Shown here: one piece after another, positions 6,308 through 42,945 of the stretch
How positions within the stretch are numbered: position 1 is the stretch's first letter
Layout of the letters: every line of letters starts with the position of its first letter
Source: a virus
Virus record (IMG/VR): IMGVR_UViG_3300033150_001569
Span: 58,308-122,307 of that record
Reading direction: 5' to 3' (one strand)
Length of the DNA: 64,000 nucleotides
Translations under genes and position numbers: made by a program
The notes under the pieces: model-generated
Told to the model about the DNA's origin: nothing
The model's database searches: none
What the model saw: only the letters and a program-made list of their open reading frames with translations

Positions 6308-6327
6308 ATAAATAAAGGAGAATAAAA

Positions 6328-6834: not shown

Positions 6835-6860
6835 CAAATTTTAATTTAACTATTTTAAAG

Positions 6861-6897
6861 GGGAATATGGAATTAATATATCCATATTCCCTTTTTT
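6861..6897 (+). terminator. Rho-independent terminator after the tail tube gene
   Basis: A perfect 11-bp stem (GGGAATATGGA at 6861-6871 with TCCATATTCCC at 6881-6891), a 9-nt loop and six Ts (6892-6897). It separates sheath and tube from the second tube-like protein and probably lets the major tail proteins be transcribed more than downstream genes. Confidence 0.9.
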
Positions 6898-6910
6898 GTT
6901 GTTGAGGATT

Positions 6911-7606: not shown

Positions 7607-7621
7607 TTTTAAATATATTTT

Positions 7622-7665
7622 TAACAATATTATTTTTTAAATTAGTTAAAAATAGAATATTGTTA
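7622..7665 (+). repeat. Inverted repeat just upstream of the chaperone ribosome site
   Basis: TAACAATATT (7622-7631) pairs with AATATTGTTA (7656-7665) around a 24-nt AT-rich loop. It ends where the AAGGAGG ribosome site of the next gene begins. It could be an RNA-processing or translation-modulating hairpin. There is no T tract, so it is not called a terminator. Confidence 0.45.
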
Positions 7666-7675
7666 AGGAGGAAAA

Positions 7676-8554
7676 ATGGAACAAGAAAAAAATAAAAAAC
7701 AAGAATTAACTTTAGATCAAACTGAAACTAAACCTGAAATTCCCACCATAAGAAAACCACTTACATTTGAATTTGATTTACCTTGTGGAGTTATTAACTC
7801 TAATGGAGAAGTTTGTAAAAAAATTGAAATAAAACCAATGACAGGTAGAGTTAGAAAACAAATAGGTGATGTTAGATATAGAAATAATTTAGTAAAAATT
7901 TCACAAATGCTATTAAGAGAAACTATATTTAAAATAGAAGGTATTGAAAAAATAACTGATAAATTAATATTAAATATGTTATCTGCTGATAGAGATTTTA
8001 TATTACTTAAATTAAAAGAAATTTCAATGCCAAAAAATGAAGAAACTATTTTATTTAGAACTAATTGCACAAATACTATGTGTAATGTAGAAATGGAAAC
8101 AGAATTTAATGTTAAATATGATTTTTCAATTAGAACAATACCAGATGAATTAAATAATAATAAAAATATAATTAATATAAATGGTAATTTTCATAGAATA
8201 TTTGAAGACGAAGATGATGAATTTGGTAAAATTATTATGAGATTACAAACTATGGCAGATCAAGAAGCTGTTGTTAATAAAGTTAATGATAATCCATTAG
8301 AAGCAGAACATATTTTATTATCTAGATTAATTGTTGAATATAATGGTAATAAAAATTTTAGTCCTAATGATTTTGATGATTTAAGTATGCCTGAAATAAA
8401 TTGGATTGAAGAATTAGCAACAAGACATAATTATGGTCCTAATATGACAAAAGAAATTATTTGTCATAATTGTAATACTAAAAATGTTACTACAATAGAT
8501 TTGTTAACTTTTTTATTCCAATCTGGCAGAGGCAAACAGACAATCCAGAATTAG
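7676..8554 (+). CDS. Tail assembly chaperone, zero-frame (G-type) product (292 aa)
   Basis: Strong AAGGAGG site. The layout fits the first chaperone of contractile tails (T4 gp26 / T4_baseplate-like family). After a charged ~30-residue leader come LTFEFDLPCG, then IEIKPMTGRVRKQIGD and a helical core. Two cysteine pairs (TNCTNTMCN and CHNC, residues ~128-133 and ~264-267) could bind a metal. The gene lies between tube and tape-measure genes, where tailed phages encode G/GT chaperones made by -1 frameshifting. A T TTT TTA slippery site near its end (8509-8515) and an open -1 frame of 76 residues match that arrangement. Confidence 0.88.
   Translation: MEQEKNKKQELTLDQTETKPEIPTIRKPLTFEFDLPCGVINSNGEVCKKIEIKPMTGRVRKQIGDVRYRNNLVKISQMLLRETIFKIEGIEKITDKLILNMLSADRDFILLKLKEISMPKNEETILFRTNCTNTMCNVEMETEFNVKYDFSIRTIPDELNNNKNIININGNFHRIFEDEDDEFGKIIMRLQTMADQEAVVNKVNDNPLEAEHILLSRLIVEYNGNKNFSPNDFDDLSMPEINWIEELATRHNYGPNMTKEIICHNCNTKNVTTIDLLTFLFQSGRGKQTIQN
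8509..8515 (+). promoter_or_regulatory. -1 programmed frameshift site T TTT TTA (tail chaperone)
   Basis: Zero-frame codons ACT TTT TTA TTC place T TTT TTA in correct X XXY YYZ phase; U UUU UUA is one of the classical slippery heptamers. A -1 slip moves the ribosome to ATT at 8515 and continues to the TAA at 8743-8745. Position and geometry match the lambda G/GT-type frameshift conserved in tailed phages. Confidence 0.85.
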
Positions 8555-8745
8555 AACAAAAACAATTAGAACTGATTGAAAAAGATTTAGATTTATTAGA
8601 TCAAGAAATATTTCATCTAGCTAAGGGATTACGTTGGAATTATCAAGATATTTTAGATATGCCAGAAGCAGATAGAAAAAAATTTGTTAGATTAGAAAGT
8701 GAATATAATGAAAGAATTCGAGATAAAATTGACGATATAAATTAA
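8515..8745 (+). CDS. Tail assembly chaperone T domain, -1 frame extension (76 aa)
   Basis: Read after the slip at 8509-8515, this yields a ~356-residue fusion (280 plus 76). It has no start codon or ribosome site of its own. The sequence is helical and includes ELEQKQLELIEKDLDLLDQE and HLAKGLRWNYQDILDMPEAD. The second resembles the Trp-containing turn followed by a MP..(D/E)R helix seen in the second chaperone of T4-like and P2-like tails. The frame ends 10 nt before the tape-measure start. The chaperone presumably coats the tape measure during tube assembly. Confidence 0.82.
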   Translation: MPIWQRQTDNPELEQKQLELIEKDLDLLDQEIFHLAKGLRWNYQDILDMPEADRKKFVRLESEYNERIRDKIDDIN

Positions 8746-8755
8746 GGAGAAAAAT

Positions 8756-11452: not shown

Positions 11453-11463
11453 GGATTTAAAAA

Positions 11464-12039
11464 ATGTCTGAAGAAAAATCTTCAAAATGTTATTTAATAG
11501 TAGATCCTCAAGATTATAAAAGATTATCTCAAAAAGGAGGTAATCGAAGAAAATTTTTACGTGTTTTAAATTTTCAATATATTCCAGCAGAAATTATTAA
11601 AAGATTAGGTGGAACATATGCTGAAATTAAAATACCAGGTGCAGCAATACCAGTTCAACAATTTATTGCTAATAATCCTTATCAAGTACAAATGACATTA
11701 TTTTTTAATGGTTTAGGAGAAGATGAAAATAATTATAAAACAGAAAAACAAAAAGAAGATTTAAGAAATAATACATATGTAAAAGATAGAGTTGATTGGT
11801 TATTTACTTTTTGTAGTAGTCAAGGTGCTAATCAAGGACAAACTGTAAGATTAACTTTATTATGGGGAGAAACTAAATATATTTATGATGGTTCAGATTT
11901 AAGAGCAAATATACCAGGTTTTAAATGTATATTAAAAAGTGTACAAGTAAAAGAAGAACAATTTAGTCCTGTATCATTATATCCTATGAGAGCTACATGT
12001 GATATTGTTCTGGAATCAATTAAACAATTTCCATTTTAA
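11464..12039 (+). CDS. Tube-adaptor / baseplate protein, CIS tube-protein-like (191 aa)
   Basis: The C-terminal pattern VKEEQFSPVSLYPMRATCDI (residues ~160-180) and the strand ILKSVQVK before it are typical of the contractile-injection-system tube/adaptor proteins (Afp7/PVC-type N-terminal domain) that join tube to hub. The following gene is a LysM-like protein, a pairing often seen fused in such systems. Here they are two genes 9 nt apart. Likely connects the tail tube to the baseplate hub. Confidence 0.72.
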   Translation: MSEEKSSKCYLIVDPQDYKRLSQKGGNRRKFLRVLNFQYIPAEIIKRLGGTYAEIKIPGAAIPVQQFIANNPYQVQMTLFFNGLGEDENNYKTEKQKEDLRNNTYVKDRVDWLFTFCSSQGANQGQTVRLTLLWGETKYIYDGSDLRANIPGFKCILKSVQVKEEQFSPVSLYPMRATCDIVLESIKQFPF

Positions 12040-12048
12040 GGAGATAAT

Positions 12049-12354
12049 ATGCCTGTTTTTAAAGGTTCTAGATATGATCGTTCTAATATTATTTCTATTG
12101 AAAATGAAGAAGGAATTACAAAATTAGATGTTGATAAAGGAAAAGAATATTCAATAGAAGATTTAGAAGATGATGATTATATTATTCATAAAGTTGGTCC
12201 AGGAGAAACATTAGAATCTATTGTTTATAAATATACTGGAAATTCTTCTTATTATTATATTATTGCTCAAATTAATGATATATATGACCCATTTGAATCT
12301 ATTGAAGGAAAAGATTTAATAATACCTTCTGAAAATTTTTTTAATAATATTTAA
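12049..12354 (+). CDS. LysM-like baseplate protein (101 aa)
   Basis: Residues ~45-95 form a LysM-like module: IIHKVGPGETLESIVYKYTG, then YYIIAQINDI and a final GKDLIIPS strand. Such short LysM proteins (T4 gp53-like, P2 gpX-like) sit in the baseplate between the tube adaptor and the hub. The preceding gene supplies the adaptor-like domain, and the hub gene starts 3 nt after this one. A structural rather than peptidoglycan-binding role is assumed. Confidence 0.8.
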   Translation: MPVFKGSRYDRSNIISIENEEGITKLDVDKGKEYSIEDLEDDDYIIHKVGPGETLESIVYKYTGNSSYYYIIAQINDIYDPFESIEGKDLIIPSENFFNNI

Positions 12355-12356
12355 TT

Positions 12357-14378
12357 ATGCCAAATACTATAAAATCTAAAAAAGAAAAATATATAAGAGA
12401 TCAAGAAACACAAATAGGTAAACTACCACCAAATTATGCTCCTACTGAAAAAGTTATAATTGATCGTGTTAGATTATTAGAAGATAAAGTTAAAGTTCTA
12501 AAAAAAGAATTAGAACCACAACCACATTGGACAGAAGGACAACAAATATCTTATTTGGAAAGAATAGATCCTTGGGTAGCAAAAGAATATCAAACTACTA
12601 TTAAAGAATATGAAGATTTAACAAATTTTTATAAAGACAAAAATGAATTAAAAAATTTAAAATTAGATATTGATAGATTTAAACCTAAAGTATGGATAAC
12701 TTTAAATGGTAAAAATATACAAAAATTTAATAAAATAGCTCCTGATTTTATTGATAGAATAGTTGTAAAAGAAAATGATGGAGGAGCAACTGATTCAAAA
12801 TCTAAAATGGGAACAGTTGAAATAACATTTAAAAATCCTTTAATAAATAAAGGAAACAAACAAAAATATGCTTTTGAAGGATTTAAACCATTTTTAACAA
12901 AAGCACAAGAAGGAGAAATATCAAAAGAAATTAAATCATATGATTATTTAGAAATTATTATTGGTTATGATAATGAAAAAAGAAATTTTGGTAAATTTTA
13001 TGTTGATAGACCTAAATTAAATTTTGCTGAAACAAATGCTCCTACAATAATATTAAAAGGTATTACTTATGAAGAAAATCTTAATACAGGAGAAAAATAT
13101 AGAGTTTGGTGGGATAAAACACCAGAAGATATAGTTAATCAAATTGCAAAAGAAGCGAATTTATCTGTAAATATTGAACCAACTGGAATACCAAGAAAAA
13201 CTATTGTTCAAAATACAAGTGATTATTTATTTCTTAAAAAAATAGCTTACAATTTAGGTTATTTATTATATATTGAAAGAAATATTTTATATTTTCATTC
13301 AATTGGAAATACTGATCCAGCATTAAGAGGTAAAAAATTTAATGGATATAAATTAGAATATAGACCAAATTCTAAAGGAACATTAAGTTCTTTTAGAATA
13401 AATTCATTTGAATCTAAAAAATTTGAAGAAATAATTGGTACTACTATAAATGATACTGGTAGATTAACTGAACCAAAAAAATATGATGTTACTAAAACTC
13501 AAGATCCGTTATCATTAATTCAAAATAAAAATAATATTTCTAGTTTTGATTTTGAAAAAGAAACTAGAAAAACTGAATTAACTGGTTTTACTAAAAATGA
13601 TGAAAAAATAAAAGATACTAATAAAATAAAAGAAAAATATGAAACAATTTCTAATGATGAATTAGCAACAAAATATAAATTATTATTTGGAGAAGATTCT
13701 ACTATTCCTGAAATTGATAATTTAGGTCTTTTAACTTATAAAACAAGACAATGGTATGTTGATCAAATAACTAAATATGAAGCAGGAGAATTATCTGAAA
13801 ATGAATTTGCAGTTACAAATTTAATAGCAAGACAAGAAATTCAGAAAAGATTAATTGTTGGTATTTATGATGGTAAAGATATTGTAATTCCAGGTACTGA
13901 TTGGTATCAAATACCTGCTGAAGCTTATATACCAGGAATGGTATCATTTCAAAAAAGAATATCTTATGCTGAAGCAATTAAAAATGAAGAAGAATTAAAT
14001 AAATTATTAAAAGCAAAAGCAATTCAAAAAAGATTTGCTGTTAAAGCAACTGGTAAAACTATAGGATTACCAAATTTAAAACCTAGAAATATTGTTGATA
14101 TATCTGGAACAGGAGATTTTGATCAATATTATTATATAACTGATATAACACATACTTTTGATCAAAGTGGTTATAATATTTCTTTTGATTGTGTTTCTGT
14201 TGGAAGAAAAATTCCTGTAATTGAAGTTGATGAAATATTAAATAATCAAGATTTAAATGAAGTTGAATTAGAAGAAGAAATATTTGTCTTTGAAAAAGAA
14301 ACTAAAACGACAAAATTAAAAAATTATGAAACTAAAGAAGAAGTTGAAGAAAGAAAGAAGAGACAAAAGGAAAAATAA
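12357..14378 (+). CDS. Baseplate hub protein, gpD/gp27-like (673 aa)
   Basis: The N-terminal ~100 residues are charged and coiled. From residue ~105 the late-control-D/gp27 fold is visible: a first beta-barrel (KVWITLNGKNI, MGTVEITFKNP, FGKFYVDRPKLNF), then the helix-containing link TPEDIVNQIAKEANLSVNIE, SDYLFLKKIAYNLGYLLYIE (the SD..FL..LA...G hallmark), and the second barrel. Residues ~380-540 form a long insertion. The C-terminus is Glu/Lys-rich. A trimer of this protein would hold the spike encoded next. Confidence 0.85.
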   Translation: MPNTIKSKKEKYIRDQETQIGKLPPNYAPTEKVIIDRVRLLEDKVKVLKKELEPQPHWTEGQQISYLERIDPWVAKEYQTTIKEYEDLTNFYKDKNELKNLKLDIDRFKPKVWITLNGKNIQKFNKIAPDFIDRIVVKENDGGATDSKSKMGTVEITFKNPLINKGNKQKYAFEGFKPFLTKAQEGEISKEIKSYDYLEIIIGYDNEKRNFGKFYVDRPKLNFAETNAPTIILKGITYEENLNTGEKYRVWWDKTPEDIVNQIAKEANLSVNIEPTGIPRKTIVQNTSDYLFLKKIAYNLGYLLYIERNILYFHSIGNTDPALRGKKFNGYKLEYRPNSKGTLSSFRINSFESKKFEEIIGTTINDTGRLTEPKKYDVTKTQDPLSLIQNKNNISSFDFEKETRKTELTGFTKNDEKIKDTNKIKEKYETISNDELATKYKLLFGEDSTIPEIDNLGLLTYKTRQWYVDQITKYEAGELSENEFAVTNLIARQEIQKRLIVGIYDGKDIVIPGTDWYQIPAEAYIPGMVSFQKRISYAEAIKNEEELNKLLKAKAIQKRFAVKATGKTIGLPNLKPRNIVDISGTGDFDQYYYITDITHTFDQSGYNISFDCVSVGRKIPVIEVDEILNNQDLNEVELEEEIFVFEKETKTTKLKNYETKEEVEERKKRQKEK

Positions 14379-14381
14379 ATA

Positions 14382-15791
14382 ATGGAAATATTTTTAGATA
14401 AAGATAGAATATTTGGTAAAACTAGAGGAAAGGTTATATCAAATAAAGATCCTCAAAAAATGGGAAGAATATTATTTATAGTTCCTGAGTTAATGGGTTC
14501 TACTATAATGCCGTGGGCAAAACCTGTTAATAATCAAGGTAGATTACCTAATATTGGTGAAGATGTTTGGATAGAATTTGAAAGAGGAGATATTAATTTT
14601 CCTATATATTCTGGTGAATGGGCAACAACAGAAGAAGGTACAAATCCAGTTCCTGATTTAGCAAAAGGATTACCTGATGAAACAGCACAAGGCAATATGG
14701 ATCAAGGTTCTAAAGGTTTTGATAGAATGCCAATCCAAGGATCTGAAACATTATTTTTTGATGAACCTTATAGTGGATTTGGAGCAGAATATTCACATAA
14801 TAGAATTATTAAAACTAAAAGTGGAAATCTTTTGGAAATAGATGATACACCAGATAATGAAAGAATTCATATTTATCATCGTAGAGGTTCTTTTTTAGAA
14901 TATAAATCTGATGGAAGTTGTATTAAAAAAACAAGAGGTCGTGAACATTCTATAATTGAAGCAAATCATATCCAACATATTCATGAAAATGAATATAAAT
15001 CTATTGATCTTAATTCTAGATATCAAATTACTAAAAATAGAAGTGTTACTGTAGGAAATGATTATAAAAAAGAAATAGGTGGAGAAACAACTGAAATATA
15101 TAAAAGTTCAACAAATAGATCATATAAAGGTAGAGTTGATAGTGAATATAATGGTGATATTAATAAAACTGTTTATGGAAGTGAGAGAAAAACTATAGGT
15201 GGACCAAAATTAGAAGTAATAATGGAAAATAAAGATGCTACTGTTGTTGGAAGAAAATCAACTGTTATAACTAATTTAAATATTGATGATGAAGCAGAAT
15301 TAAAAACAATTTTAATAGGAAATTTATATCAAAAATTAGTAGCAGGAGATAAAGAATTATTAATATTATTAGGAGATGTACTTAAAAAAATATTAATTGG
15401 TAATTTAAAATATAATATCCAAATAGGAGATATGGAATTTAAAGTAGGAACTGGAGATATAGAAATATCTACATCTGCTGATGGATTTTTAGATTTAGGT
15501 GAAATAACTATTAAAAATCAAGATAATAAAATTAAACTTTATAAAAATGGTAAAACTGAAATAATTACAAAAAATATAATTAATCTTATTTCTGATTTAA
15601 TAAATATTAAAAAAGATGGAGAATCTGTTGAACCAATGGTTTTAGGTAATAAAATATTTGCTCAAATAGCTCATATTGTTCAAATGTTTTTAAATCATCA
15701 ACATACACATCCTTATGGTCCAACTACTGGTTTAATTGGTTCTATGCAAAATTTTGATGATTATAGAAGTGCAACTAATAATGTTTCTTAA
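14382..15791 (+). CDS. Baseplate central spike, gpV/gp5-like with OB-fold (469 aa)
   Basis: Residues ~10-95 match the gp5/VgrG/gpV OB-fold domain (GKVISNKDPQKMGRILFIVP, MPWAKPVNNQGRLPNIGEDV, WIEFERGDINFPIYSGEW). From ~170 to ~380 come short alternating strands (ITKNRSVTVGNDYKKEIGG, KILIGNLKYNIQIGDMEFKV) forming the triple-stranded beta-helix needle. The C-terminus has a histidine-rich HQHTHPYGPTTG motif common at spike ends. No lysozyme domain of the T4 gp5 type is seen. It sits directly after the hub, as in other myoviruses. Confidence 0.9.
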   Translation: MEIFLDKDRIFGKTRGKVISNKDPQKMGRILFIVPELMGSTIMPWAKPVNNQGRLPNIGEDVWIEFERGDINFPIYSGEWATTEEGTNPVPDLAKGLPDETAQGNMDQGSKGFDRMPIQGSETLFFDEPYSGFGAEYSHNRIIKTKSGNLLEIDDTPDNERIHIYHRRGSFLEYKSDGSCIKKTRGREHSIIEANHIQHIHENEYKSIDLNSRYQITKNRSVTVGNDYKKEIGGETTEIYKSSTNRSYKGRVDSEYNGDINKTVYGSERKTIGGPKLEVIMENKDATVVGRKSTVITNLNIDDEAELKTILIGNLYQKLVAGDKELLILLGDVLKKILIGNLKYNIQIGDMEFKVGTGDIEISTSADGFLDLGEITIKNQDNKIKLYKNGKTEIITKNIINLISDLINIKKDGESVEPMVLGNKIFAQIAHIVQMFLNHQHTHPYGPTTGLIGSMQNFDDYRSATNNVS

Positions 15792-15803
15792 AAGGTCTAT
15801 AAA

Positions 15804-16976
15804 ATGGCAAAATCTATAACAGATTTTTTTGGAAAAGTTATAAAAGATCATGTAAAAGATGGACTTGGAAGACCTATGCAAAATGGTAGTGCAGATGGAA
15901 GTTATCAAAATATTGCTGCTAGTGAATTGTGGTCGCAAATAAAACTTGCTAATGCAATGGAGAATCAATGGGTTAATTTTTGTAATAGTATGAAAAATAG
16001 TGATGGAAATTCAATTATTCCTCCAACAACAGTTACATATACATATGGTGGAAATAAAATTACCAATCCTGGAATTGAATATGAAATTGAATGGGGTTTA
16101 AAAGTTATTAAAAGTGGAATAGCAATTCCTTTTTACTGGATTAAATATAAATCAAATATAGATTTAAGTTCTGCTTCTAAAGATGATATTTGGATTTGTG
16201 ATAGAGGACATGAATATTTAGTAGAACAAGTTAATAATTTTGAAAATAAAATTTTAATAGCAGGACCAATTTCAAAAATTGATGGAACTTCTGGTGGTGG
16301 TCATATTAAAAGTGGAGATCAAGGAAAAATATCTAAATCTTTTCATGGTGGTACTCCAAGTGGTGAAACTCAAGAATTTGATGCAACAGGTTCTAGTGGA
16401 ACTTTTAAATTAGGAGAAATGATAACAGGTTCTCCTAGTGGTGCTACTGGAAAAGTTCTTGATAGTGATGGATTAACAAAAGGATATTTTAAAAGTAATC
16501 CACAACATATACCTTATAGTATAGGTCCACCAATTGTTTTAGAACATTGGAAAGTTGAATTAACAGATGTATCACATTTATCAGTTGGAGTTCCTGTTAT
16601 ATTTGAAGATTATAATGGTCAAACATTAGAAACTATATTATTTAATATTGGTGGTGATACTGTTAAAACATATGATAATATTTCAGGATTTTCAAGAAAT
16701 ACACCTTCTTGGGTAAAACTTAAAAATCCAACAGATATTGCTACTTTTTTAAATATTGAACTTCAAGGAACAACTAAATTTTTAGTTGGAGATATTGTAA
16801 CTGGAGATGAATCTGGAACTACTACAATTTTACAAACTGATAATACTGATTATTCAGAAAATAAAAGTAATCCAGAACATATTCAAGCATTATTAAATAT
16901 ATTAAAAGCAGTATCTCCTCAATGTATATGCATAATTGGTCCTAGTAGTGTTCCATTACCTTTAATAGTTACATAA
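15804..16976 (+). CDS. Baseplate-associated structural protein (390 aa)
   Basis: Follows the spike gene. The N-terminal ~60 residues include a predicted helix. Residues ~60-150 are beta-rich. Two copies of a G(E/D)xxTGxxSGxT motif occur (~residue 210 GEMITGSPSGATGKV and ~330 GDIVTGDESGTTT), each followed by a matching SNPQH/SNPEH segment, so the C-terminal half contains a duplicated small beta domain. Such motifs are frequent in phage tail and particle-surface proteins. Exact role unknown. Confidence 0.65.
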   Translation: MAKSITDFFGKVIKDHVKDGLGRPMQNGSADGSYQNIAASELWSQIKLANAMENQWVNFCNSMKNSDGNSIIPPTTVTYTYGGNKITNPGIEYEIEWGLKVIKSGIAIPFYWIKYKSNIDLSSASKDDIWICDRGHEYLVEQVNNFENKILIAGPISKIDGTSGGGHIKSGDQGKISKSFHGGTPSGETQEFDATGSSGTFKLGEMITGSPSGATGKVLDSDGLTKGYFKSNPQHIPYSIGPPIVLEHWKVELTDVSHLSVGVPVIFEDYNGQTLETILFNIGGDTVKTYDNISGFSRNTPSWVKLKNPTDIATFLNIELQGTTKFLVGDIVTGDESGTTTILQTDNTDYSENKSNPEHIQALLNILKAVSPQCICIIGPSSVPLPLIVT

Positions 16977-16977
16977 A

Positions 16978-17262
16978 ATGATAATAAGAGAAAAAATTGA
17001 AAAATTATTATATGAAAATAATTCTAATAGTTTAAGTAAATGGTATTGTTTTAAATCAATAAGAGAAATACCTTTATTTAGAATGTTTGAATTTGCAATA
17101 TTAATGATTAATTTAGAAATTGAAAAATTAACATATAAAATAAGATATTATTTACAAGATTGTTTTATTATTAAAAAACAAATTAATCAAAATAATAAAA
17201 AAGAAAAATTAATAGAAAAAAGAAAAAATATACTTTTAAAATATTTTAAAGGAAATAAATAA
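16978..17262 (+). CDS. Small basic helical protein (94 aa)
   Basis: Starts 1 nt after the preceding TAA and ends 2 nt before the next ATG. Lys/Ile/Asn-rich and helical throughout; the C-terminal 30 residues are strongly basic. No motif recognised. Position among baseplate genes suggests a baseplate or assembly component; not otherwise assignable. Confidence 0.6.
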   Translation: MIIREKIEKLLYENNSNSLSKWYCFKSIREIPLFRMFEFAILMINLEIEKLTYKIRYYLQDCFIIKKQINQNNKKEKLIEKRKNILLKYFKGNK

Positions 17263-17264
17263 TA

Positions 17265-20200
17265 ATGGCAAGAGAAGTTGATCTTACAAATGATCAAAGA
17301 ATAGAAAATATAGAAACAAGATATCGTAAAGAAAAAGGTCTTAAATTTGATAATACTCCTGGAAAATGGTTAGGAGCATCTATTGGTCAATTTTTACCTG
17401 TTGAACAAATTCTTAATTTTATTAAAGGAGTAGAGAAAGCAATTGCTCCATTAATCTTAGTATTAAATTTAACAGCAGGAGTTTTAAATAAAGCAAAAAT
17501 ATTTCTTAAAACGTTTCCTAATTTAACAGCATTAATAATTAAAATAGCATTATATCCTATAGTTAGATTTCTAGAAGATCTCAAAAATACTAAAGTATCA
17601 ATGTTAATTATTAGTCCAAAATTAGGACCAATGAGCATTAAAAAAGCATTTACTGTATTAGAAAATAGTTTTTATGATAAAGCAGATCCTGAAAGACCTA
17701 TACCTAAAACTGGTTTATTAGGTGGATTAATAATATTAGGTTATTTTCCAACATTATCAGCATTTACAAGATTTGGTAATACTATTGCAAAATTTTTAAA
17801 TCAACCTACTTTTGGTAATTTTGATAAAGTTAAATTAAAAAGTCCATTTGCAACTGCAACAGTAATAGATATGGCAAAAATTGATCATACTACTAGAGAT
17901 TCTGGTAATGATTCTTTATATAGTAATGAATTAAAATGGCAAGGAGATAATTCAAAAAAAGTTGTTAATTATAAACAATATATAGCAGATGCAAGAGGTG
18001 GAAGTGTATTTATAAATCCTAATTTTGATATAATTATTAGCACTAGTAATTTTTCATTTCCAGAGAAAGGTCTTTTAAAAGTAACACAAGGTTTAGATAA
18101 ACCATATTATATACCTTATAATGGTAGAGCAGTTGTTTTAAATAATAATAGAATAGTACCAATTCATTTTAAATTTGATGATAAACAAGATATTAAATAT
18201 TATGCATTTATTAATTGTGAAATTCCACAAAATATTTATAAAATAACAGAAGTTTCAGATGATATTCAAACAACAAATAATGATAAAAATTATAAAATAA
18301 TTCATGATGTTGAATTTAGAAAAATAGAAATAAAAGGAAAAAAGAAAAGTAATTTTATTGATTCAATATCAGAATCATACGAAAACTTTTTATCATTTGA
18401 TACACAAGATATTATAGGAGATTTAATTGAACCAGATAAATCACAATATAATAGAAAAATTAATATTACAGATAAAAGAACGTTAAATATTAATTATTCA
18501 GGTAGAGAAAGTGAATTTTTAAAAATTACTTCTTTTATTTTAATAGATCAAGAAACAGGAGAATATTTTGGTAAATTTTATAGAGATGAATTTGTAGTAC
18601 CAGGTTCTCAAGTAGTTGATGATAAAGGTAATCTAACAATTTCTTATATTTTAACAGATATACCAAGTTCAATAAGAAAAGTATTAGTAATAGCATATAT
18701 GAATATATTTGAAGATACTGATGAATTAGAAGAAATAACTAAATTTATAACAAGAATAACTAAAAAACATAGATTTGAAATAAAAGGAGCATTTTTAGAA
18801 CCAGGAACTTTTCCATTTCAAGGTACTGCTCCAGATTGGTATAGTATAGGTTTAACTGATTTAATTAGACCATTAAAATATGTATTTAGATATTTTTCTC
18901 AATTTATAGATTGGTTATCTAAATATTCATTTGATGTTACTGATATATTAATTAAAGGAATAGAAGTATTAGAACATAATGTTAAAACTTTAAAAGAAAC
19001 ATTAGATTCAATTAATTATATGTTAACCGAATATTTCACTTTTGAAATATTAAATACTAGAGCAAATTTTCTTTTATTAGATCCAAAATTAGGAGGAGTT
19101 CCTAATTTTATGTATAGAATAAGAAATAGTACTGGTTTAGAAACATTTGGTGCTAAAGATAATTATCAAGAATTAGATAAATATAGATTTACTGAAAATG
19201 AACAAGAATATTTGAAAAAATTTACTGTATCAGGTGGTCAAACACAAAGTTTAGTTAGTCTTGCTAATTCTGGTTATTTAAATAAAGAAGGATATACTTT
19301 TATAATAGCTTTATGTGTTACTTCAGGAAGAGATTATTCTGTATTTAGTAAATTTTTCCAATTTGCAGTTCAAGATACATGGAAAGATATTAGAAAAGTA
19401 TTTAATGATAAATATTTAGAAGATCTTAAAAAAGGTTATAAAAGAGCATTTAATGGACAATATCCATTTGATAATACTAATTTAAATGATACAGATAGAA
19501 ATAAATTAGAAGGAATTCTAGAACAAATAGAAAATAATAAAGAAGAAGCTGATGAACCAACTACATTACCAGAAGAAGTACCAGGAGATTTTGCAAGACC
19601 AACATATGATCCATATGGAACTATTAGTAGTCCTGGAGAAGCAAATGATGTTTTAAATACAGGACAAGGTAAAGATGGTAAATTAATTTCTGATACTAAT
19701 TATAGAGAACTTTATGAATTAGATGATGGTACTAAATGGGATATTATTAAAAATGGTGATAATGATTTAGGTAGAATTAATCTTGATAGTAATGCTGGAT
19801 TAATTGATGGAAATTTATTAACTTCTCCTCCTTTTGGAAGATATATTGATGGTTTATTTGATCAATTTAATAGATTATATATTATAACAGAATTTGGTCT
19901 TGCTAGATATGATTATCAAAATTGGTATGGATTTATAGATTTAAATGGATTTTTAAATCCTAATCCTACATCTATTATTAGAGATCATAATAATAAAATA
20001 TGGATAGGAACTAAATTTGGTATATCTTGTTATGATCCTGGAAAAAATTGGATCAACTATAGTAAATATCAACCTATATATGATTTAGAAAATAATCAAT
20101 ATACTTATAATAATAATTTTAAAAATATAATTGTTAAAACAATAGTTACAAATGAAACAATAGAAAATATTCAATCATTTCCTATTAAAAAAATTAAAAA

Positions 20201-21584
20201 ATTAAATAAATCTTTTATTAATAAAGAAGATTTAACATATTATCCAGAATCTTTTGAAATTAATTGTTTATATTTTGATTCAAATAATAAAATTTTAGTA
20301 GGTACTAATAATGGATTAATTAAAATTGATCCTGATACATTTGATATTGAAAAAGTTTTAGTTAAAGAATTAGAAACAGATTTTAATAATTATGATATAA
20401 CTTCAATTACTGAATCTGATAATTATATATGGGCAACTACAATTGATTCTGGTTTATTTAAAATAGATAAAACTAATTATAATAATGTAACACAATTTAA
20501 AAGAAATGACACATTTATTGCTAGTAATAATTTAACAAGTGTTGTTATAAAAGAAAATGATGATATTTTTATTGGTAATGCTTTTGATGGATTAAATTTT
20601 TATGATGAATCTGGTAATGATTGGGATATAATTAATAATCAAGTATTTATTGAAGGATCAAATATTGAACCATTTTTTATAAATTCAAATAATAATAAAT
20701 TAAAAATTAATATTAAAGATAAAATTTATGAATTAACAATAAATAATACATTAATTAATTCTTCTAGTACTGGTGAAATTCTTTCTTCATTAAATGAATT
20801 TAAAGATATAAATTTTACTTTTGTTAATAATCATATTAATAAATATATTAAAATAACTAATGCAGTTGATCCTTTAAATATTACTTATAAAAAAATATTA
20901 GAAATAATTGATTCAAATACAGTATTAATAGATAGTAGTTTAAATAGTGCTGAAGCAGGAATTACTTATGAATTACATAATGCTAGTGCTGAAAAAATAT
21001 CTCAGGATATTAATAATGCTGCTGGTGCTAATAATGATAATGCTAAAATTGATTTATCATTAATTACTAAAGCAAATGATAAAGGACAAATAGTATTTGT
21101 AAGAGAAAAACAAAATTTTGAATTATTTAAATTAATAAGTACAACAAATTCTATATATTCAACAATTGGTATAAATGTTGGAACTGAAAGAGAATTTAAT
21201 TATCCTAAAATAGTAAGTAATAGATTAGTAACAATGACTTTTTATAATAAAAAAGAAGAATTATTGGTAGGAACTTTTAATACTGGATTTTTTAAAAAAG
21301 ATAAAAATGATAATTATTATAATTATACACCAATAAATAGTTATTTACCAGAAATATATGTTAATAAAATTTTAGTTGATGCTTCTGGAAGTAAATGGAT
21401 TATAACTAATTATTTTATAACTAAATTTGTTGATAAAACAAGTGATCAAATTGAAATTAAAATTAATGATACTTCTAAAGTTGTTGATTGTAAAGTTGAT
21501 GATTATCAAATAGAAATTAAACAAAGTACTGATGATATAGATATAGAAATTGATAATAACGATTTAGATTATGATATATTTTAA
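17265..21584 (+). CDS. Giant baseplate/tail protein with Reg_prop-like beta-propeller (1439 aa)
   Basis: Residues ~30-120 have several hydrophobic helices (ILNFIKGVEKAIAPLILVLN, LTALIIKIALYPIVRF). Residues ~240-800 are mixed and beta-rich. From ~860 to ~1390 at least six blades of a propeller can be read: IRDHNNKIWIGTKFGISCYD, FDSNNKILVGTNNGLIKID, ESDNYIWATTIDSGLFKID, KENDDIFIGNAFDGLNFYD, KKEELLVGTFNTGFFKKD and DASGSKWIITNYFITKF. This D..(N/G).(I/L)W(V/I)GT..GL..(Y/F)D signature is that of the two-component-regulator propeller repeat, normally found in bacterial periplasmic sensors. In a virion protein it probably binds a receptor or another baseplate protein. The gene lies between spike and wedge genes. 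Confidence 0.75.
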   Translation: MAREVDLTNDQRIENIETRYRKEKGLKFDNTPGKWLGASIGQFLPVEQILNFIKGVEKAIAPLILVLNLTAGVLNKAKIFLKTFPNLTALIIKIALYPIVRFLEDLKNTKVSMLIISPKLGPMSIKKAFTVLENSFYDKADPERPIPKTGLLGGLIILGYFPTLSAFTRFGNTIAKFLNQPTFGNFDKVKLKSPFATATVIDMAKIDHTTRDSGNDSLYSNELKWQGDNSKKVVNYKQYIADARGGSVFINPNFDIIISTSNFSFPEKGLLKVTQGLDKPYYIPYNGRAVVLNNNRIVPIHFKFDDKQDIKYYAFINCEIPQNIYKITEVSDDIQTTNNDKNYKIIHDVEFRKIEIKGKKKSNFIDSISESYENFLSFDTQDIIGDLIEPDKSQYNRKINITDKRTLNINYSGRESEFLKITSFILIDQETGEYFGKFYRDEFVVPGSQVVDDKGNLTISYILTDIPSSIRKVLVIAYMNIFEDTDELEEITKFITRITKKHRFEIKGAFLEPGTFPFQGTAPDWYSIGLTDLIRPLKYVFRYFSQFIDWLSKYSFDVTDILIKGIEVLEHNVKTLKETLDSINYMLTEYFTFEILNTRANFLLLDPKLGGVPNFMYRIRNSTGLETFGAKDNYQELDKYRFTENEQEYLKKFTVSGGQTQSLVSLANSGYLNKEGYTFIIALCVTSGRDYSVFSKFFQFAVQDTWKDIRKVFNDKYLEDLKKGYKRAFNGQYPFDNTNLNDTDRNKLEGILEQIENNKEEADEPTTLPEEVPGDFARPTYDPYGTISSPGEANDVLNTGQGKDGKLISDTNYRELYELDDGTKWDIIKNGDNDLGRINLDSNAGLIDGNLLTSPPFGRYIDGLFDQFNRLYIITEFGLARYDYQNWYGFIDLNGFLNPNPTSIIRDHNNKIWIGTKFGISCYDPGKNWINYSKYQPIYDLENNQYTYNNNFKNIIVKTIVTNETIENIQSFPIKKIKKLNKSFINKEDLTYYPESFEINCLYFDSNNKILVGTNNGLIKIDPDTFDIEKVLVKELETDFNNYDITSITESDNYIWATTIDSGLFKIDKTNYNNVTQFKRNDTFIASNNLTSVVIKENDDIFIGNAFDGLNFYDESGNDWDIINNQVFIEGSNIEPFFINSNNNKLKINIKDKIYELTINNTLINSSSTGEILSSLNEFKDINFTFVNNHINKYIKITNAVDPLNITYKKILEIIDSNTVLIDSSLNSAEAGITYELHNASAEKISQDINNAAGANNDNAKIDLSLITKANDKGQIVFVREKQNFELFKLISTTNSIYSTIGINVGTEREFNYPKIVSNRLVTMTFYNKKEELLVGTFNTGFFKKDKNDNYYNYTPINSYLPEIYVNKILVDASGSKWIITNYFITKFVDKTSDQIEIKINDTSKVVDCKVDDYQIEIKQSTDDIDIEIDNNDLDYDIF

Positions 21585-21596
21585 AGGAGAAATAAA

Positions 21597-22646
21597 ATGG
21601 AATTTAAAATTAAAAAGAAAGATAGATTACCAGATTTAGGAATAACAGCATATAAAGTAGGTACAAGTGATCCGCATAATTTTAATGATGATGGTACTAT
21701 TTATGATAAAAAATTAGTTAATGGTGCAGAGATTTCTGATAAAAAACATGTATTTTTTATAATGAAAAAAACTCAAGTATCTTATACAGGTTCTTATCCA
21801 TTAACTAGTGAAAGATTAAATCAAGGAGTTGAAACAGGAGATGAACCACTTAGTACTAGTGCTTATAATATTATATTAAGTATTGATAATTTTGATCCAT
21901 TATTAATAGATGTAACAGGAGATGAAGGAGTAGGAGGTAATTATGAACCTTCTGATATAGTTGATAATATTAATGCTGCTTTTGCTAATTTAGATACATC
22001 ATTAGCTAATGTTGCTTCATTAACAACAGAAGGTTATTTAAAAATTACTTCTCCTTCTACTGGAATTAATAGTCGTGTAATAGTTCATAATAATCCTGGT
22101 GAAGTTAGTAAAAATGCTACTGAAATTTTATTTGATGTTGAAGAAGATAGTGGTACTGTTTATTCTCAAGATGATATTCCTGTTAATCCTAATTTATTTG
22201 GACATGAAGGAATTAATGCTGAAATAGTAAGTGATGATCCTAGTCTTGGTAAATTAAAATATAAATGGAATGTATTAGATACACAAAATGAAGGAATTTA
22301 TATTGCAGAATTTAAAATAAAATATGTAATAGATATTACTTTAACAGGTAGTATTAAATTTTTTAATGGATCTAAAACATTAGAAGGTATTAATGCTAAA
22401 TTATTATCAGAAATTAAAAAAGGTGATTTTATTTCTGATGGTTCTAAATTATATATGATTAATAAAATAACAAATGATAATGCAGCAGTATTAGTTGATA
22501 ATTATGATAGTGTTGATAAAACAGTTTCAACTCCTTCTGGTAAAGGATTCAAATTTCGATCATTTCCTAGTACTGATGATACTGAAAAGAAATTATTTGT
22601 AAAAGTTGCTGATGATGTTGATAATGATGATGATTTTTATGAATAA
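21597..22646 (+). CDS. Structural protein, beta-rich and acidic (349 aa)
   Basis: Good AAAGGAGA site. Beta-rich, with a C-terminal acidic tail (VADDVDNDDDFYE). Residues ~75-120 (SAYNIILSIDNFDPLLIDVT) and ~125-180 resemble the small beta modules common in phage surface proteins. No signal peptide. Probably a tail or baseplate accessory protein by position; family not recognised. Confidence 0.6.
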   Translation: MEFKIKKKDRLPDLGITAYKVGTSDPHNFNDDGTIYDKKLVNGAEISDKKHVFFIMKKTQVSYTGSYPLTSERLNQGVETGDEPLSTSAYNIILSIDNFDPLLIDVTGDEGVGGNYEPSDIVDNINAAFANLDTSLANVASLTTEGYLKITSPSTGINSRVIVHNNPGEVSKNATEILFDVEEDSGTVYSQDDIPVNPNLFGHEGINAEIVSDDPSLGKLKYKWNVLDTQNEGIYIAEFKIKYVIDITLTGSIKFFNGSKTLEGINAKLLSEIKKGDFISDGSKLYMINKITNDNAAVLVDNYDSVDKTVSTPSGKGFKFRSFPSTDDTEKKLFVKVADDVDNDDDFYE

Positions 22647-22660
22647 AAATTGGAGGATTT

Positions 22661-23098
22661 GTGAAAACATTTTATGATAATTTAAATCATACTGATAAAG
22701 ATATTTTTCAATTTGTAATAAGTGATTTAGAACAGGATTATAATAATATTGAAATTAGAAAAATTAATCAATCTATATCTGATATGGAAAAAGAACTTAG
22801 AGATAAAAATAATCGTAGAAAAATACTTGAAAATCGTATTAATAATATTATATATCTTTTAAAAATTATTAATGAAGTTAAAAATCCTTCAGATGAATTA
22901 TTATTATTTAAAAATAATTTAATTGAAAATTTACAAATAACTCATGATGAAATACCTAAATGTAATGTACAGAAATTACATATTAGAATATTAGAACAAA
23001 AAAAATTATTAGAAAGATTTACTCAAATTAAAAAATTAATTAATAAATTTTTTAATAATAAAATTAATAATGATAAACAAGATAATAAAAAAAATTAA
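22661..23098 (+). CDS. Coiled-coil protein (145 aa), GTG start
   Basis: GTG start after a TGGAGG site. Nearly all-helical and heptad-like (residues ~25-60 KINQSISDMEKELRDKNNRR, and ~95-130). It ends in a Lys/Asn-rich tail and overlaps a short frame beginning at 23070. Chaperone or scaffolding proteins of this type occur among tail genes, but no specific role can be read. Confidence 0.6.
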   Translation: MKTFYDNLNHTDKDIFQFVISDLEQDYNNIEIRKINQSISDMEKELRDKNNRRKILENRINNIIYLLKIINEVKNPSDELLLFKNNLIENLQITHDEIPKCNVQKLHIRILEQKKLLERFTQIKKLINKFFNNKINNDKQDNKKN

Positions 23099-23228
23099 TA
23101 AAAGATTAAAAGAAATTAAAGAAATAAAAAAACATTGTGAAACTATAGGTGAAGATTGTAAAATTTGTAAAGTAGTTATTAAAGAATTAAATAATATTTT
23201 AAATTATATTAAATTTTTTAAAAAATAA
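23070..23228 (+). CDS. Short basic ORF with CxxxxxxCxxC (52 aa)
   Basis: ATG at 23070 lies inside the end of the coiled-coil gene (29-nt overlap, +1 frame). The frame fills the gap up to the gp25 gene, which starts 10 nt after its stop. It encodes a Lys/Ile-rich helical peptide with Cys at ~24, 31 and 34. No clear ribosome site, so translation would depend on coupling. Could also be a non-coding spacer. Confidence 0.4.
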   Translation: MINKIIKKINKRLKEIKEIKKHCETIGEDCKICKVVIKELNNILNYIKFFKK

Positions 23229-23238: not shown

Positions 23239-23673
23239 ATGACAACTAAAACTAAAATAGATCTTATATTAGGTAGAGCAGCAAAATATCCTTTTAAAAT
23301 AGAAAATGGTACATGGCCTTTAACTCAACCTGGAAAAGTAGGTCAACAAAAACATATTAAAGATAGTTTATTAGATTTAATATTTACAACTTTAGGAGAA
23401 AGATTACATCGTAGAGGTTATGGATCATTAGCATTAGAATATATTTTTGAAAATATTGATGAGGTTTATGCTAGAGAATTAGAAACTAATATTTATGATA
23501 TTATAGCAAATTATGAAGGAAAAATTGATGTTCAATTAATAACAGTTACACCTGATCCAGATAATGCTCGGTACATTGTAAATATAGAATATACATTTGC
23601 AAATGAAGTAAAACCGAATAATATAATTTTTCCAATTTCAGCTAAAGATTTCAAAGAATCTGAATACTTATAA
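23239..23673 (+). CDS. Baseplate wedge protein, gp25/gpW-like (144 aa)
   Basis: Typical gp25-like fold: YPFKIENGTWPLTQPGK, then the helix HIKDSLLDLIFTTLGERLHR followed by the hallmark RRGYGS..LE..FE and a C-terminal VNIEYTFANE strand. T4 gp25 family members are ~130-145 residues. The protein joins the wedge to the hub-sheath junction. The baseplate J gene follows, the standard order. Confidence 0.93.
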   Translation: MTTKTKIDLILGRAAKYPFKIENGTWPLTQPGKVGQQKHIKDSLLDLIFTTLGERLHRRGYGSLALEYIFENIDEVYARELETNIYDIIANYEGKIDVQLITVTPDPDNARYIVNIEYTFANEVKPNNIIFPISAKDFKESEYL

Positions 23674-23755: not shown

Positions 23756-25519
23756 TTGGCAAATAATTTACCTAAAATTGATTATAGTAGTAGAGATTTT
23801 ATTGCTATTTTGGCAGATATAAGAAGATTATTTCCTTATTTTCTACCAGAAATGACAGATTTAAATCCTAGTAATCCTGCTATTGCTTTAGCAGAAATTG
23901 ATGCTGTTATGGCAGATCAATTGCATTTTTATGTAGATAGAATGGTAAATGAAATGTTTCTTGCTACTGCACTTCGTAGAAGAAATGTTAAAAATATATT
24001 AAGACTTATTGATTATGAAATGAGTTCTGCTCAATCATCAATAGTTCCATTAAAATTTACTTTAGGTTCAACATATCCAAATCCTATTATTATTCCAGTT
24101 GGAACTCAATGTCAATCAGTTGGATTAGATGAAGTAATTTATTTTGAAACAGTTAAAGATTTAATAATACCATCTGGTGAATTATCTAATACTATTGAAG
24201 CTGAGGAAGGACAAACGATAAGTGAATCAATAGGGGTTTCAGATGGAACTTCATATCAATCTTTTATAACTAATGAATATCCTATTATAGATGATAGTTT
24301 AAAAATATTTGTGAATGAAGGTTCTGGTTATTTTTTATGGAAAGAGGTAGAAAATTTTGCAAATTCAAATTCAACTAGTCGTCATTATGCTGTTCAAAAA
24401 GATGAATTTGATAGAGCAATTATATTTTTTGGTGATGATGGTCAAGGAAAAATACCTGCTCCTGATTCTTCTATTCTTGCTATATATAAAATAGGTGGTG
24501 GAGAAAGAGGAAATGTTGAGATAGGAGTTATTCAACAAATAAATAGTATTATTTTGCATAATGGTAATCAAGTTTCTATTTCAGTTATTAATGAAGAAGC
24601 AGCACAGGGAGGTGTTGAAAGAGAAAGTATTGAAACTGCAAAAATTCAAGGACCATTAAATCTTAGAACTTTAGGTAAAGCAGTAACATTAGAAGATTTT
24701 GAAACATTGGCATTAAAAGTAAGTGGAGTTGGTAAATGTCAAGCAAAAAAAACAGATTTTAATGAAGTTACTTTATATATATTTGGAAATGCAGGAATTG
24801 AGGCATCTATTGCATTAAAATCTAAAACAAAAGAATATTTTGATGGTAATGGAGTTGATATTCCACAAAAAAGATTATGTACAGTAGAAGTATTAGTTGA
24901 AGGTGGAACTTATGTAGATCCTTGGATTGAAGGGTATATTAAAGTATTACCTAATTATAAAAATTCAAGTGTTAAAGCATTAGTTAATGATGCTTTAAAA
25001 GAATTATTTGATTTTGATGAACAAGAATTTGGTAAAACAGATGATGATATAGGAAATTTAAATACTAGTGATGTAATTAGTGTTATTCGTAATGTAGAAG
25101 GTGTTGATTATTTTAATCCTGATATTATTTCAATGCGTCCTAAAATTAATAAAGAAGTATGGTCTGGTGATGCTGATTTTGTTGATGATGCTTGGGTTAT
25201 TAATGATGAAACAGTTGATGAAACATGGACATTAAATTTTGTTAGTCCTACTAAATTTCAAGTTCAGGGAAGTGTTAGTGGAGTACAATCAAATCAAGGA
25301 GTAATTGGAACTTTATATCAATCAGATGGTACAGAACCAAAAATTAAATTTAAATTAGAAAATAATGGTCAAGCAATGCAAATAGGAGATAGAGTAAAAT
25401 TTAGAGTTTCTAAAATTAATGATAATATTGATGTTAATGATTCTGAAATTTTGTCTCCAACATTAGATATTAATGGATTATTTAAATATTTTGATTTAAC
25501 TTATGAAGGAGGGGCATAA
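23756..25519 (+). CDS. Baseplate J protein, gp6-like wedge component (587 aa)
   Basis: TTG start with a GGGGG-type site upstream; the first residues (LPKIDYSSRDFIAILADIRR) are typical of baseplate_J proteins. Conserved pieces are MADQLHFYVDRMVNEMFLATALRRRNVKNILRL (split over residues ~60-95), the FGDDGQGKIP..S.I.A.Y..GGG segment (~222-247), and QGPLNLRTLGKAVTLEDFE (~297-316). Residues ~460-587 are an added beta-rich C-terminal region. Forms the iris ring of the baseplate wedge. Confidence 0.92.
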   Translation: MANNLPKIDYSSRDFIAILADIRRLFPYFLPEMTDLNPSNPAIALAEIDAVMADQLHFYVDRMVNEMFLATALRRRNVKNILRLIDYEMSSAQSSIVPLKFTLGSTYPNPIIIPVGTQCQSVGLDEVIYFETVKDLIIPSGELSNTIEAEEGQTISESIGVSDGTSYQSFITNEYPIIDDSLKIFVNEGSGYFLWKEVENFANSNSTSRHYAVQKDEFDRAIIFFGDDGQGKIPAPDSSILAIYKIGGGERGNVEIGVIQQINSIILHNGNQVSISVINEEAAQGGVERESIETAKIQGPLNLRTLGKAVTLEDFETLALKVSGVGKCQAKKTDFNEVTLYIFGNAGIEASIALKSKTKEYFDGNGVDIPQKRLCTVEVLVEGGTYVDPWIEGYIKVLPNYKNSSVKALVNDALKELFDFDEQEFGKTDDDIGNLNTSDVISVIRNVEGVDYFNPDIISMRPKINKEVWSGDADFVDDAWVINDETVDETWTLNFVSPTKFQVQGSVSGVQSNQGVIGTLYQSDGTEPKIKFKLENNGQAMQIGDRVKFRVSKINDNIDVNDSEILSPTLDINGLFKYFDLTYEGGA

Positions 25520-25689
25520 TGAATAATTTTATTTTAAATTTAGCAAGACCAAGAAGAAATGGTGGAAATGGTAGACGTGATGGTTCTGGAAGAGGAAGAG
25601 GTCAATCAGGTGGAGGAAGAAGAAATAGAAATCCTAAACCATGTGGTAGAGGTGGAAATGGAAATGGAAGAGGTAGAAATCGTAAATAA
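25519..25689 (+). CDS. Arg/Gly-rich RGG-like protein (56 aa)
   Basis: The ATG at 25519 shares one base with the gpJ stop (TAATG) and follows GAAGGAGGGG, one of the strongest ribosome sites in the window. The 56-residue product contains 14 Arg and 16 Gly, with GRGRG, GGGRRNR, CGRGG and GNGRGRNR stretches after a short hydrophobic start (MNNFILNLA). It ends 1 nt before the KH-domain gene. Arg/Gly-rich tracts of this kind bind RNA or DNA in other proteins. Neither this nor any homologue is recognised as a tail component. Local G+C is much higher than its neighbours because of GGN and some CGN codons. A frame offset by one base is also open but Glu/Val-rich, and is taken as a shadow. Confidence 0.75.
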   Translation: MNNFILNLARPRRNGGNGRRDGSGRGRGQSGGGRRNRNPKPCGRGGNGNGRGRNRK

Positions 25690-25690: not shown

Positions 25691-25957
25691 ATGGATGATA
25701 AAAAAATAGTTAAAAAATTTATTTTAAGTACATTAGAAGGATTATTAGATGAAATAGATAAATTAAAAATTAAAATAAATAAAAAAAATAATTATATTGA
25801 ATATTTAATTAAAGTTGATGATAAAGATTATGGAAAAGTAATAGGTAAAGATGGTAGAAATTTAAAAGCTATTAAAACTTTATTTAATTCAATTACTAGT
25901 AAATTAAAAATATCTGCTAATATTAATTTTGATATTCCTAAATTAAAGAAAAAATAA
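25691..25957 (+). CDS. KhpA-like KH-domain RNA-binding protein (88 aa)
   Basis: The ATG at 25691 begins MDDKKIVKKFILSTLEGLLD. The core KVDDKDYGKVIGKDGRNLKA (residues ~41-60) is the KH signature with a GKDG loop (52-55), in the arrangement of the bacterial KhpA/YlqC family (V...D.GRVIGK.GR...AIR), which is ~75-80 residues long. Its TAA overlaps the ATG of the next gene by 1 nt. KhpA proteins bind RNA in bacteria, usually with KhpB. Its presence inside a baseplate/tail operon directly after an Arg/Gly-rich protein is unusual. The same frame is open upstream to 25559, but that part is the out-of-frame shadow of the Arg/Gly-rich gene. Confidence 0.85.
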   Translation: MDDKKIVKKFILSTLEGLLDEIDKLKIKINKKNNYIEYLIKVDDKDYGKVIGKDGRNLKAIKTLFNSITSKLKISANINFDIPKLKKK

Positions 25958-27189
25958 TGCTTAAAATTAAAAAACCAATTTATACAGTATTTCAATCTTA
26001 TCAAGAACAAAGTGAAGATTATCCAAAAGGTCGTACTGTATTAACATTAAATTGGCAAATACCTACTAAATATGAAGAAATTGAAAAAATAATAATTGAA
26101 TCATTTAATGGTTTAGATACTAATTTTCAATTACCTTATGGAAATATTGAAAATATTACTTTATATGCTGATGATATTGAAATTGATAGTAGTCATTATA
26201 TAATTGATTTAATAGAAGGAAATGGAACTGTTTATTCTACTGCTGCAAATAATGGTCAAAAAATAAAAATAACATATACTCCACTTAATCCTGTAAAAGT
26301 AACAGATGAAATAGAAGGAGAAATTTTAATTAATTCTTGTGTTCCAAATAGAGATAATGAATTCAAAATAGGTAATAAAAATATAATACCAACAATTACT
26401 CCTAAATTTTATACTAATGGAATTTATATTACTCATAATACTCCAATAATTGATAGTATTAATAAAATAATTACAACTGATAAATGGTATTTTAATTATA
26501 AAACTGGTAAAGGTGTTCTTAGATCTGGTGCAGCATTACCTGCTACTTTAAGTGAAATAACAATTGATTATTATAGAGAAATAAAATTAGATAAATTTGA
26601 ATTATATAAAATTGAAAATGGATTATATATATATACAACTTATGAAGAAGTTATAAATGATCCTAATAAAATTATTGTTAATGATAATATTAATTATTCT
26701 TCTAATAACTACATTGAAGAAATGATTTCAGACCAAAATGGTCGTAATTATATGTATTATTTATTTGCTGTTGATTCTGATGGCAATCATTCTATTTGTG
26801 ATTTACAATTAATAGAAACATTACCTTCAATTGTACAAAATTTTGTATTATATACTAGAACTGGTGAAGTAAATTTATTTTGGGATAAAGTAATTGATCC
26901 TAATGTTAATGGTTATAATATTTGGAGATGTGAAGGAACTATTTTACAAAAACAAAATCTTGTTAAATTAAATAGTAAATTAATAACATCTAATGAATTT
27001 TCTGATAGTGCAACAAATACTACAAATAGAAAATCTTCTACTGAAATTACATATCCATTAGAAGCAAAAAGTTATGTTTATTTAGTTGAAGCAGTAGATG
27101 AATATTCTAGTTGGAAAGTAGGAACTGAAAATAAAAGTAGTGAAGCAAGTGAAAATTTAATAACTCAATTAATTCCTGACGATAAATAA
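25957..27189 (+). CDS. Tail protein with C-terminal fibronectin-III-like domain (410 aa)
   Basis: Coupled by a 1-nt overlap to the KH gene and 1 nt from the next ATG. Beta-rich throughout. Residues ~288-400 resemble an FnIII module (VNLFWDKVIDPNVNGYNIWR and YVYLVEAVDEYSSW). Residues ~95-110 (KIKITYTPLNP) and ~170-190 are further strands. Position next to the P2-I-like gene suggests a wedge or fibre-attachment protein. Confidence 0.65.
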   Translation: MLKIKKPIYTVFQSYQEQSEDYPKGRTVLTLNWQIPTKYEEIEKIIIESFNGLDTNFQLPYGNIENITLYADDIEIDSSHYIIDLIEGNGTVYSTAANNGQKIKITYTPLNPVKVTDEIEGEILINSCVPNRDNEFKIGNKNIIPTITPKFYTNGIYITHNTPIIDSINKIITTDKWYFNYKTGKGVLRSGAALPATLSEITIDYYREIKLDKFELYKIENGLYIYTTYEEVINDPNKIIVNDNINYSSNNYIEEMISDQNGRNYMYYLFAVDSDGNHSICDLQLIETLPSIVQNFVLYTRTGEVNLFWDKVIDPNVNGYNIWRCEGTILQKQNLVKLNSKLITSNEFSDSATNTTNRKSSTEITYPLEAKSYVYLVEAVDEYSSWKVGTENKSSEASENLITQLIPDDK

Positions 27190-40551: not shown

Positions 40552-40583
40552 TATTTTTAAATTTATATTAAAAGGAGATTAAA

Positions 40584-40877: not shown

Positions 40878-40928
40878 GTTGTTGAATAATTAAAAATAAC
40901 TTATCTACCATGTGTAGAAAAAGCTAAA

Positions 40929-40957
40929 GGGAAGTGGGTTATCCTACTTCCCTTTTT
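40929..40957 (+). terminator. Rho-independent terminator
   Basis: GGGAAGTGGG (40929-40938) pairs with TCCTACTTCCC-type sequence at 40943-40952 (10 bp with one G-U, TTAT loop), followed by five Ts. It lies between the acidic helical protein and the putative holin, so the holin needs its own promoter or readthrough. Confidence 0.85.
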
Positions 40958-40972
40958 ATTATGGAGAATATT

Positions 40973-41268: not shown

Positions 41269-41302
41269 TTTAATATAATACTATTAATTAGAAGGAGTTA
41301 TT

Positions 41303-42388: not shown

Positions 42389-42391
42389 ATT

Positions 42392-42944: not shown

Positions 42945-42945
42945 C

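Follow-up and report, generated by a model that had tools for sequence, protein, structure and literature searches.

A gene located among the tail genes of a large, AT-rich phage encodes a KH fold protein of the KhpA-like type, and proteins of this type are widespread in phages. The gene lies on the plus strand of the window, i.e. the whole stretch of 64,000 nucleotides that was analysed (positions 58,308 to 122,307 of the 122,307-bp virus record IMGVR_UViG_3300033150_001569). It is directly preceded by an ORF for an Arg/Gly-rich protein, and both are embedded in a baseplate operon (Table 1). The explanation favoured here, in which we place about even confidence, is that the product is a phage RNA-binding protein, co-translated late in infection, which would act as an RNA chaperone or a translational regulator of AU-rich late mRNAs.

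Table 1. Features of the tail operon around the KH gene, in window coordinates.
Feature	Position	Strand	Evidence
Remainder of the contractile tail module: sheath, tube, tape measure, baseplate wedge, tail protein, hub/lysozyme, uncharacterised genes	4358..23228	+	PHROGs
gp25/gpW-type baseplate wedge protein	23239..23673	+	phrog_261 2.3e-19
gpJ/gp6-type baseplate wedge protein	23756..25519	+	phrog_219 1.8e-33, phrog_6 7.5e-30
Arg/Gly-rich protein, 56 aa, directly upstream of KH	25519..25689	+	GC3 0.02, positive codon score, Shine-Dalgarno
KhpA-like single KH (type II), 88 aa, GxxG loop GKDG	25691..25957	+	Pfam, AlphaFold2, Foldseek, codon score
410-aa protein, no family match	25957..27189	+	no PHROG match at 0.05
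gpI-like tail protein, 1642 aa	27191..32119	+	phrog_48 3.9e-07 on first 600 aa

The preliminary description of this DNA had proposed a KhpA-like KH protein with a GKDG loop and an HMM search as the check. This search supports the proposal, since the protein matches the Pfam family KH_KhpA-B (PF13083) with an E-value of 2.9e-15 and 56.3 bits, exceeding the curated cut-off of 32.1. It is the sole match to this model in the entire virus record. The codon score of the frame is +47.5 and its GC3 is 0.02, compared to about 0.05 in the adjacent genes, while all other frames at this position contain stops or have negative codon scores. A chance ORF is ruled out by the E-value, the codon score, and the fold. 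An earlier start at the in-frame ATG at 25559 was also considered, but the upward extension is non-coding in the KH frame (codon score -31.6), and the start at 25691 therefore stands.

The AlphaFold2 model, built from an alignment of 11 sequences, has a mean pLDDT of 89.9 and the helix-strand-strand-helix-helix-strand topology of a single type II KH domain (H3-16, E26-32, E35-41, H47-51, H53-71, E76-81). The GxxG loop, formed by residues 52-55 (G52-K-D-G55), is positioned between helices 2 and 3, as required for a type II KH domain. Searching the PDB with Foldseek returned type II KH domains, namely the uS3 KH domain, Era, KhpB (9lrg/9lri) and 3gku. Among 12 aligned phage KhpA-like proteins, D46, G48, K49, G52, K53 and G55 are invariant, and I51 is kept in 11. 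In KH domains, a GDDG sequence in this loop abolishes target binding (PMC6403258).

Despite this resemblance, the protein is not KhpA proper, because it scores below the cut-offs of all NCBIfam KhpA equivalogs (42.6 bits against 85 for PRK01064, 33.5 against 106 for PRK00468 and 30.5 against 106 for PRK02821) and lies outside the rpsP-rimM operon. With bacterial KhpA (PF13083; YlqC of B. subtilis), whose type of single KH domain spans about 75-95 aa, it shares the single type II KH domain, the GKxG loop and the fold. However, bacterial khpA is found in the operon ffh-rpsP-khpA-rimM-trmD (loci L206, L207, L211, L212 and L248), whereas the window gene is part of a tail operon. KhpB, also known as Jag or EloR, has the KH fold (the Foldseek matches 9lrg and 9lri) and the Pfam family in common with it, but combines KH and R3H domains in about 200 or more aa, while the window protein is a KH domain only, with neither R3H nor Jag-N. 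The Jag_EloR model accordingly scores 22.8 bits, against a cut-off of 145. The closest bacterial KhpA proteins come from Marinimicrobia/Fidelibacterota, with 39-44 % similarity. The best E-value was 1.5e-11 in Marinimicrobia and 1.1e-7 in a Clostridia sample. As just these two phyla were evenly sampled, this points weakly to a Marinimicrobia host, which should be taken as a lead only.

The relation to the bacterial proteins also bears on how the product might act. In B. subtilis, cross-linking shows that KhpA binds RNA in vivo, and KhpA proteins elsewhere form homodimers or heterodimers with KhpB (PMC12456014). In S. pneumoniae, mutagenesis identified I61 of KhpA as the dimer position that governs pairing, and the same helix mediates the heterodimer of KhpA with EloR/KhpB (PMC6403258). 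Leu64 of the window protein aligns to I61 by spacing (R56/K62/T63/L64 with R53/R59/T60/I61) and, being hydrophobic and non-aromatic, would be compatible with pairing at this position. The phage protein could instead interfere with the host by pairing with its KhpA or KhpB (Jag/EloR) and redirecting or blocking the RNA-chaperone complex, which would alter envelope growth or translation late in infection. The shared pairing helix fits this explanation, as does the presence of KhpA in 146 of the 149 genomes of a sampled bacterial phylum. Furthermore, the phage record contains no KhpB, since the window gene is the single KH_KhpA-B match. Nevertheless, we consider host interference unlikely: a gene among the late tail genes would come late for a takeover, and the identity to the closest bacterial KhpA is just about 40 %.

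The surroundings of the gene would fit expression together with the tail genes. The preliminary description had placed it between tail genes with gpI next. Its location inside the tail operon holds, but the gpI-like gene follows one position further on because the 410-aa gene intervenes, giving the order gpJ, Arg/Gly ORF, KH, 410-aa gene, gpI-like gene. The long C-terminal part of the gpI-like protein is built from numerous short, degenerate repeats in which Asp, Glu, Asn, Ile and Ser are abundant. That the KH gene directly follows an Arg/Gly-rich protein was borne out as well: the 56 residues include 14 R, 16 G and 1 D but no E, its codon usage shows the ORF to be a real gene, and no other frame in the 122-kb record is R/G-rich. 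Searches of Pfam, PHROGs and NCBIfam gave no family match for this protein, and Arg/Gly richness by itself is no proof of RNA binding.

The junctions in this part of the operon are tight. gpJ and the Arg/Gly ORF overlap by one base (TAATG), a gap of one base separates the Arg/Gly ORF from the KH gene, and the latter overlaps the 410-aa gene by one base. At -12.2 kcal/mol, the Shine-Dalgarno site of the Arg/Gly ORF is the strongest of the gene run, whereas the sites are weak at the KH gene (-3.3), the 410-aa gene (-0.9) and the gpI-like gene (+0.3); for reference, 5 % of random sites fall below -6.3. The weak downstream sites and the one-base junctions are most simply explained by translation coupled from the Arg/Gly start. 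The Arg/Gly ORF is thus probably translationally coupled to the KH gene, although weak Shine-Dalgarno sites are also found elsewhere in the operon, so that the coupling has the standing of an inference. A promoter and terminator scan found nothing above shuffled sequences.

Small genes flanked by baseplate genes often encode structural proteins, and the KH gene is embedded in the tail operon next to a gene for a strongly basic protein. Both products could therefore be virion parts or assembly factors, either small proteins of the baseplate or injected ones, with a nucleic-acid-binding role inside the particle. We regard this as decidedly unlikely, since relatives have tail genes without either protein and the KH model has no match at E <= 0.001 in a Foldseek search of the viral structure library.

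In the favoured explanation, the tail operon would have acquired a gene for a KhpA-like RNA-binding protein, which would share one message with gpJ and the tail genes that follow. The ribosome-binding site would be that of the Arg/Gly ORF, and the KH protein would be made by re-initiation one base past the stop of this ORF. A putative KH dimer could then grip short AU-rich single-stranded RNA through the GKDG loop. In this way it would act as a chaperone on the AU-rich late messages of the phage or regulate their translation, and the Arg/Gly-rich protein might be its partner, binding RNA non-specifically. The kept loop, the KH fold, Leu64, the one-base junctions, the strong Shine-Dalgarno site of the Arg/Gly ORF and the conserved gene neighbourhoods in other phages count in favour of this explanation. 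The lack of any known Rfam RNA element within the window and the absence of the KH-Arg/Gly pair from all distant relatives checked count against it. In addition, the RNA specificity may have changed because the sequence is very divergent. A partial precedent is RegA of phage T4, whose fold is unrelated to KH and whose gene belongs to the replication gene cluster and not to a tail operon. RegA is likewise a small phage protein; it acts on AU-rich phage mRNAs and represses about 30 messages (PMC3014915), an activity that is only proposed for the window protein.

Single-protein searches of IMG/VR with KH or gpJ gave no close relative, and tblastn of KH in annotated phages gave nothing useful. The capsid protein search yielded one contig of 18.5 kb with an identical capsid protein, the examined part of which contains no KH. 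A KH match above the cut-off was found in none of the 8 annotated phages related through gpJ or the capsid protein, in none of the gpJ relatives within 50 records and in none of 45 capsid relatives, where these gpJ and capsid relatives comprise about 100 virus records that share only about 25-34 % identity with the phage in the two proteins. The sole record above the cut-off among the 50 (L013) stems from a KH search and is not a gpJ relative. Conversely, no gpJ was present in the examined flanks, short for many, of 137 KH loci among the matches listed. The preliminary description had suggested a synteny search for gpJ-RGG-KH-gpI, and the same order occurs in no relative found. It had also named absence of the pair from all relatives as evidence against its proposal. 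This applies in part: the pair is absent from about 100 records, yet at such low identity proper sister phages may be unsampled. With these distant relatives lacking a KH match above the cut-off and close ones unsampled, the gpJ-RG-KH order is known from this lineage alone.

Absence from all relatives examined, together with a long branch, would also be expected of a cargo gene (moron) of little function that had landed between gpJ and the tail gene that follows. However, the codon usage agrees fully with that of the phage, the GxxG core has been kept, and the tight overlaps with both neighbours suggest a settled integration, which makes a cargo gene highly improbable.

The window protein is no lone oddity, as KhpA-like proteins are widespread in phages, with one lineage carrying the gene just upstream of baseplate genes. 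Strict patterns, with 8 and 15 matches, had given the impression that KhpA is rare in phages. This was overturned by a relaxed pattern scan of IMG/VR with at least 119 stretches; at least 118 ORFs match an HMM built from bacterial KhpA, all with E < 1e-3, although these counts include near-identical copies and IMG/VR records are fragments. Bacterial contamination does not account for the loci, since ffh/rpsP neighbours occur at only 1 of 137 loci among the matches listed (L123). This record (MT835475.1, listed as 'Bacteriophage sp.' in the phage collection) is probably a bacterial chromosome fragment because ffh and rpsP adjoin khpA. In 12 of 12 records checked, there is one KhpA-like copy per record.

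These genes recur in several conserved neighbourhoods (T1 to T5). In T1, with about 24 loci among the matches listed (L294, L314, L360 and about 21 others) on contigs of up to 317 kb, an Hsp20-like gene is located directly upstream and HNH-like and HU-like genes, both assigned by eye, are located downstream. T2, with about 18 loci among the matches listed (L338, L391, L389, L321 and about 14 others), has the order UvsX, KH, a 188-aa protein and a Cas4-like exonuclease, followed in L391 on the same strand by baseplate wedge (phrog_22056/7145), hub (PF04717, phrog_430) and endolysin genes. In T3, GroES/GroEL precede the KhpA-like gene and ParB/methylase and TerS follow it; the chaperonin pairing was seen at about nine loci among the matches listed (including L112, L108, L116, L117 and L120), several of them with GroES. 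T4 comprises AT-rich podovirus-like contigs with a P22-type portal upstream, then small genes and the KhpA-like gene (L107, L289, L393); L107 and L289 also carry an FmdB-like zinc-ribbon gene. In T5, a ParB-methylase and RuvC are found upstream and an endolysin-like gene downstream. The window gene shares the Pfam family and the phage genome context with these genes but differs in its neighbour, gpJ.

In the tree, T1 and T2 are each set apart by a supported branch (96 and 100), and phage sequences are intermingled with bacterial ones. Several transfers of KhpA-like genes between bacteria and phages are therefore likely. The window protein has the longest end branch in both trees and is placed, without support, near Marinimicrobia KhpA and T2. 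An assignment to one phage KhpA clade was discarded, as the trees give no resolution for such a long branch.

A scattered distribution and repeated acquisition would also fit an accessory role, such as counter-defence, in which the protein would bind RNA and inhibit an RNase or a toxin-antitoxin system of the host. The small RNA-binding protein TifA of phage T4, which traps ToxN on RNA (PMC10853763), follows a comparable logic. Still, fixed gene neighbourhoods in several phage lineages, unlike those of typical defence cargo, and the placement in a late operon make this explanation very unlikely for the window gene.

The phage KhpA-like class is invisible to present annotation, since none of the phage KH proteins scanned has a match in PHROGs at thresholds of 0.05 or 0.01. 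Among the annotated phages, the only clear case in a complete genome is gp147 of Tunturiibacter phage Tunturi_5, a 'hypothetical protein'; this phage is also a cultivable carrier of a KhpA-like gene. A literature search for KhpA or the KH domain with phage, which covered largely non-subscription papers, gave no paper on KhpA in phages, and neither term appears in a jumbo-phage overview with a list of RNA regulators (PMC7824862).

The fixed neighbourhoods of KhpA-like genes beside structural and chaperone genes in many uncultured phage lineages suggest that phages bring their own RNA-binding regulators of late expression. The global RNA chaperones Hfq, ProQ and KhpA/KhpB have been studied as host factors. 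It is possible, if doubtful, that these genes represent widespread unnamed phage RNA chaperones that originated from bacteria several times and were kept beside virion, terminase or protein-chaperone genes, and that in the phage studied here, together with the Arg/Gly partner in the baseplate operon, the protein controls late mRNAs to provide the right amounts of tail parts.

Besides the KH gene, a histidine-kinase-type ATPase gene and a group of glycosyltransferase, methyltransferase and pyruvyl-transferase genes are located beside the tail module (window 43218-44162 and 45024-48897). The terminase region before the window (L020:177-5424, about 40177-45424 of the record) is split over several ORFs, one of them with an intein-like end (VHNT), which suggests a putative intein or homing insertion.
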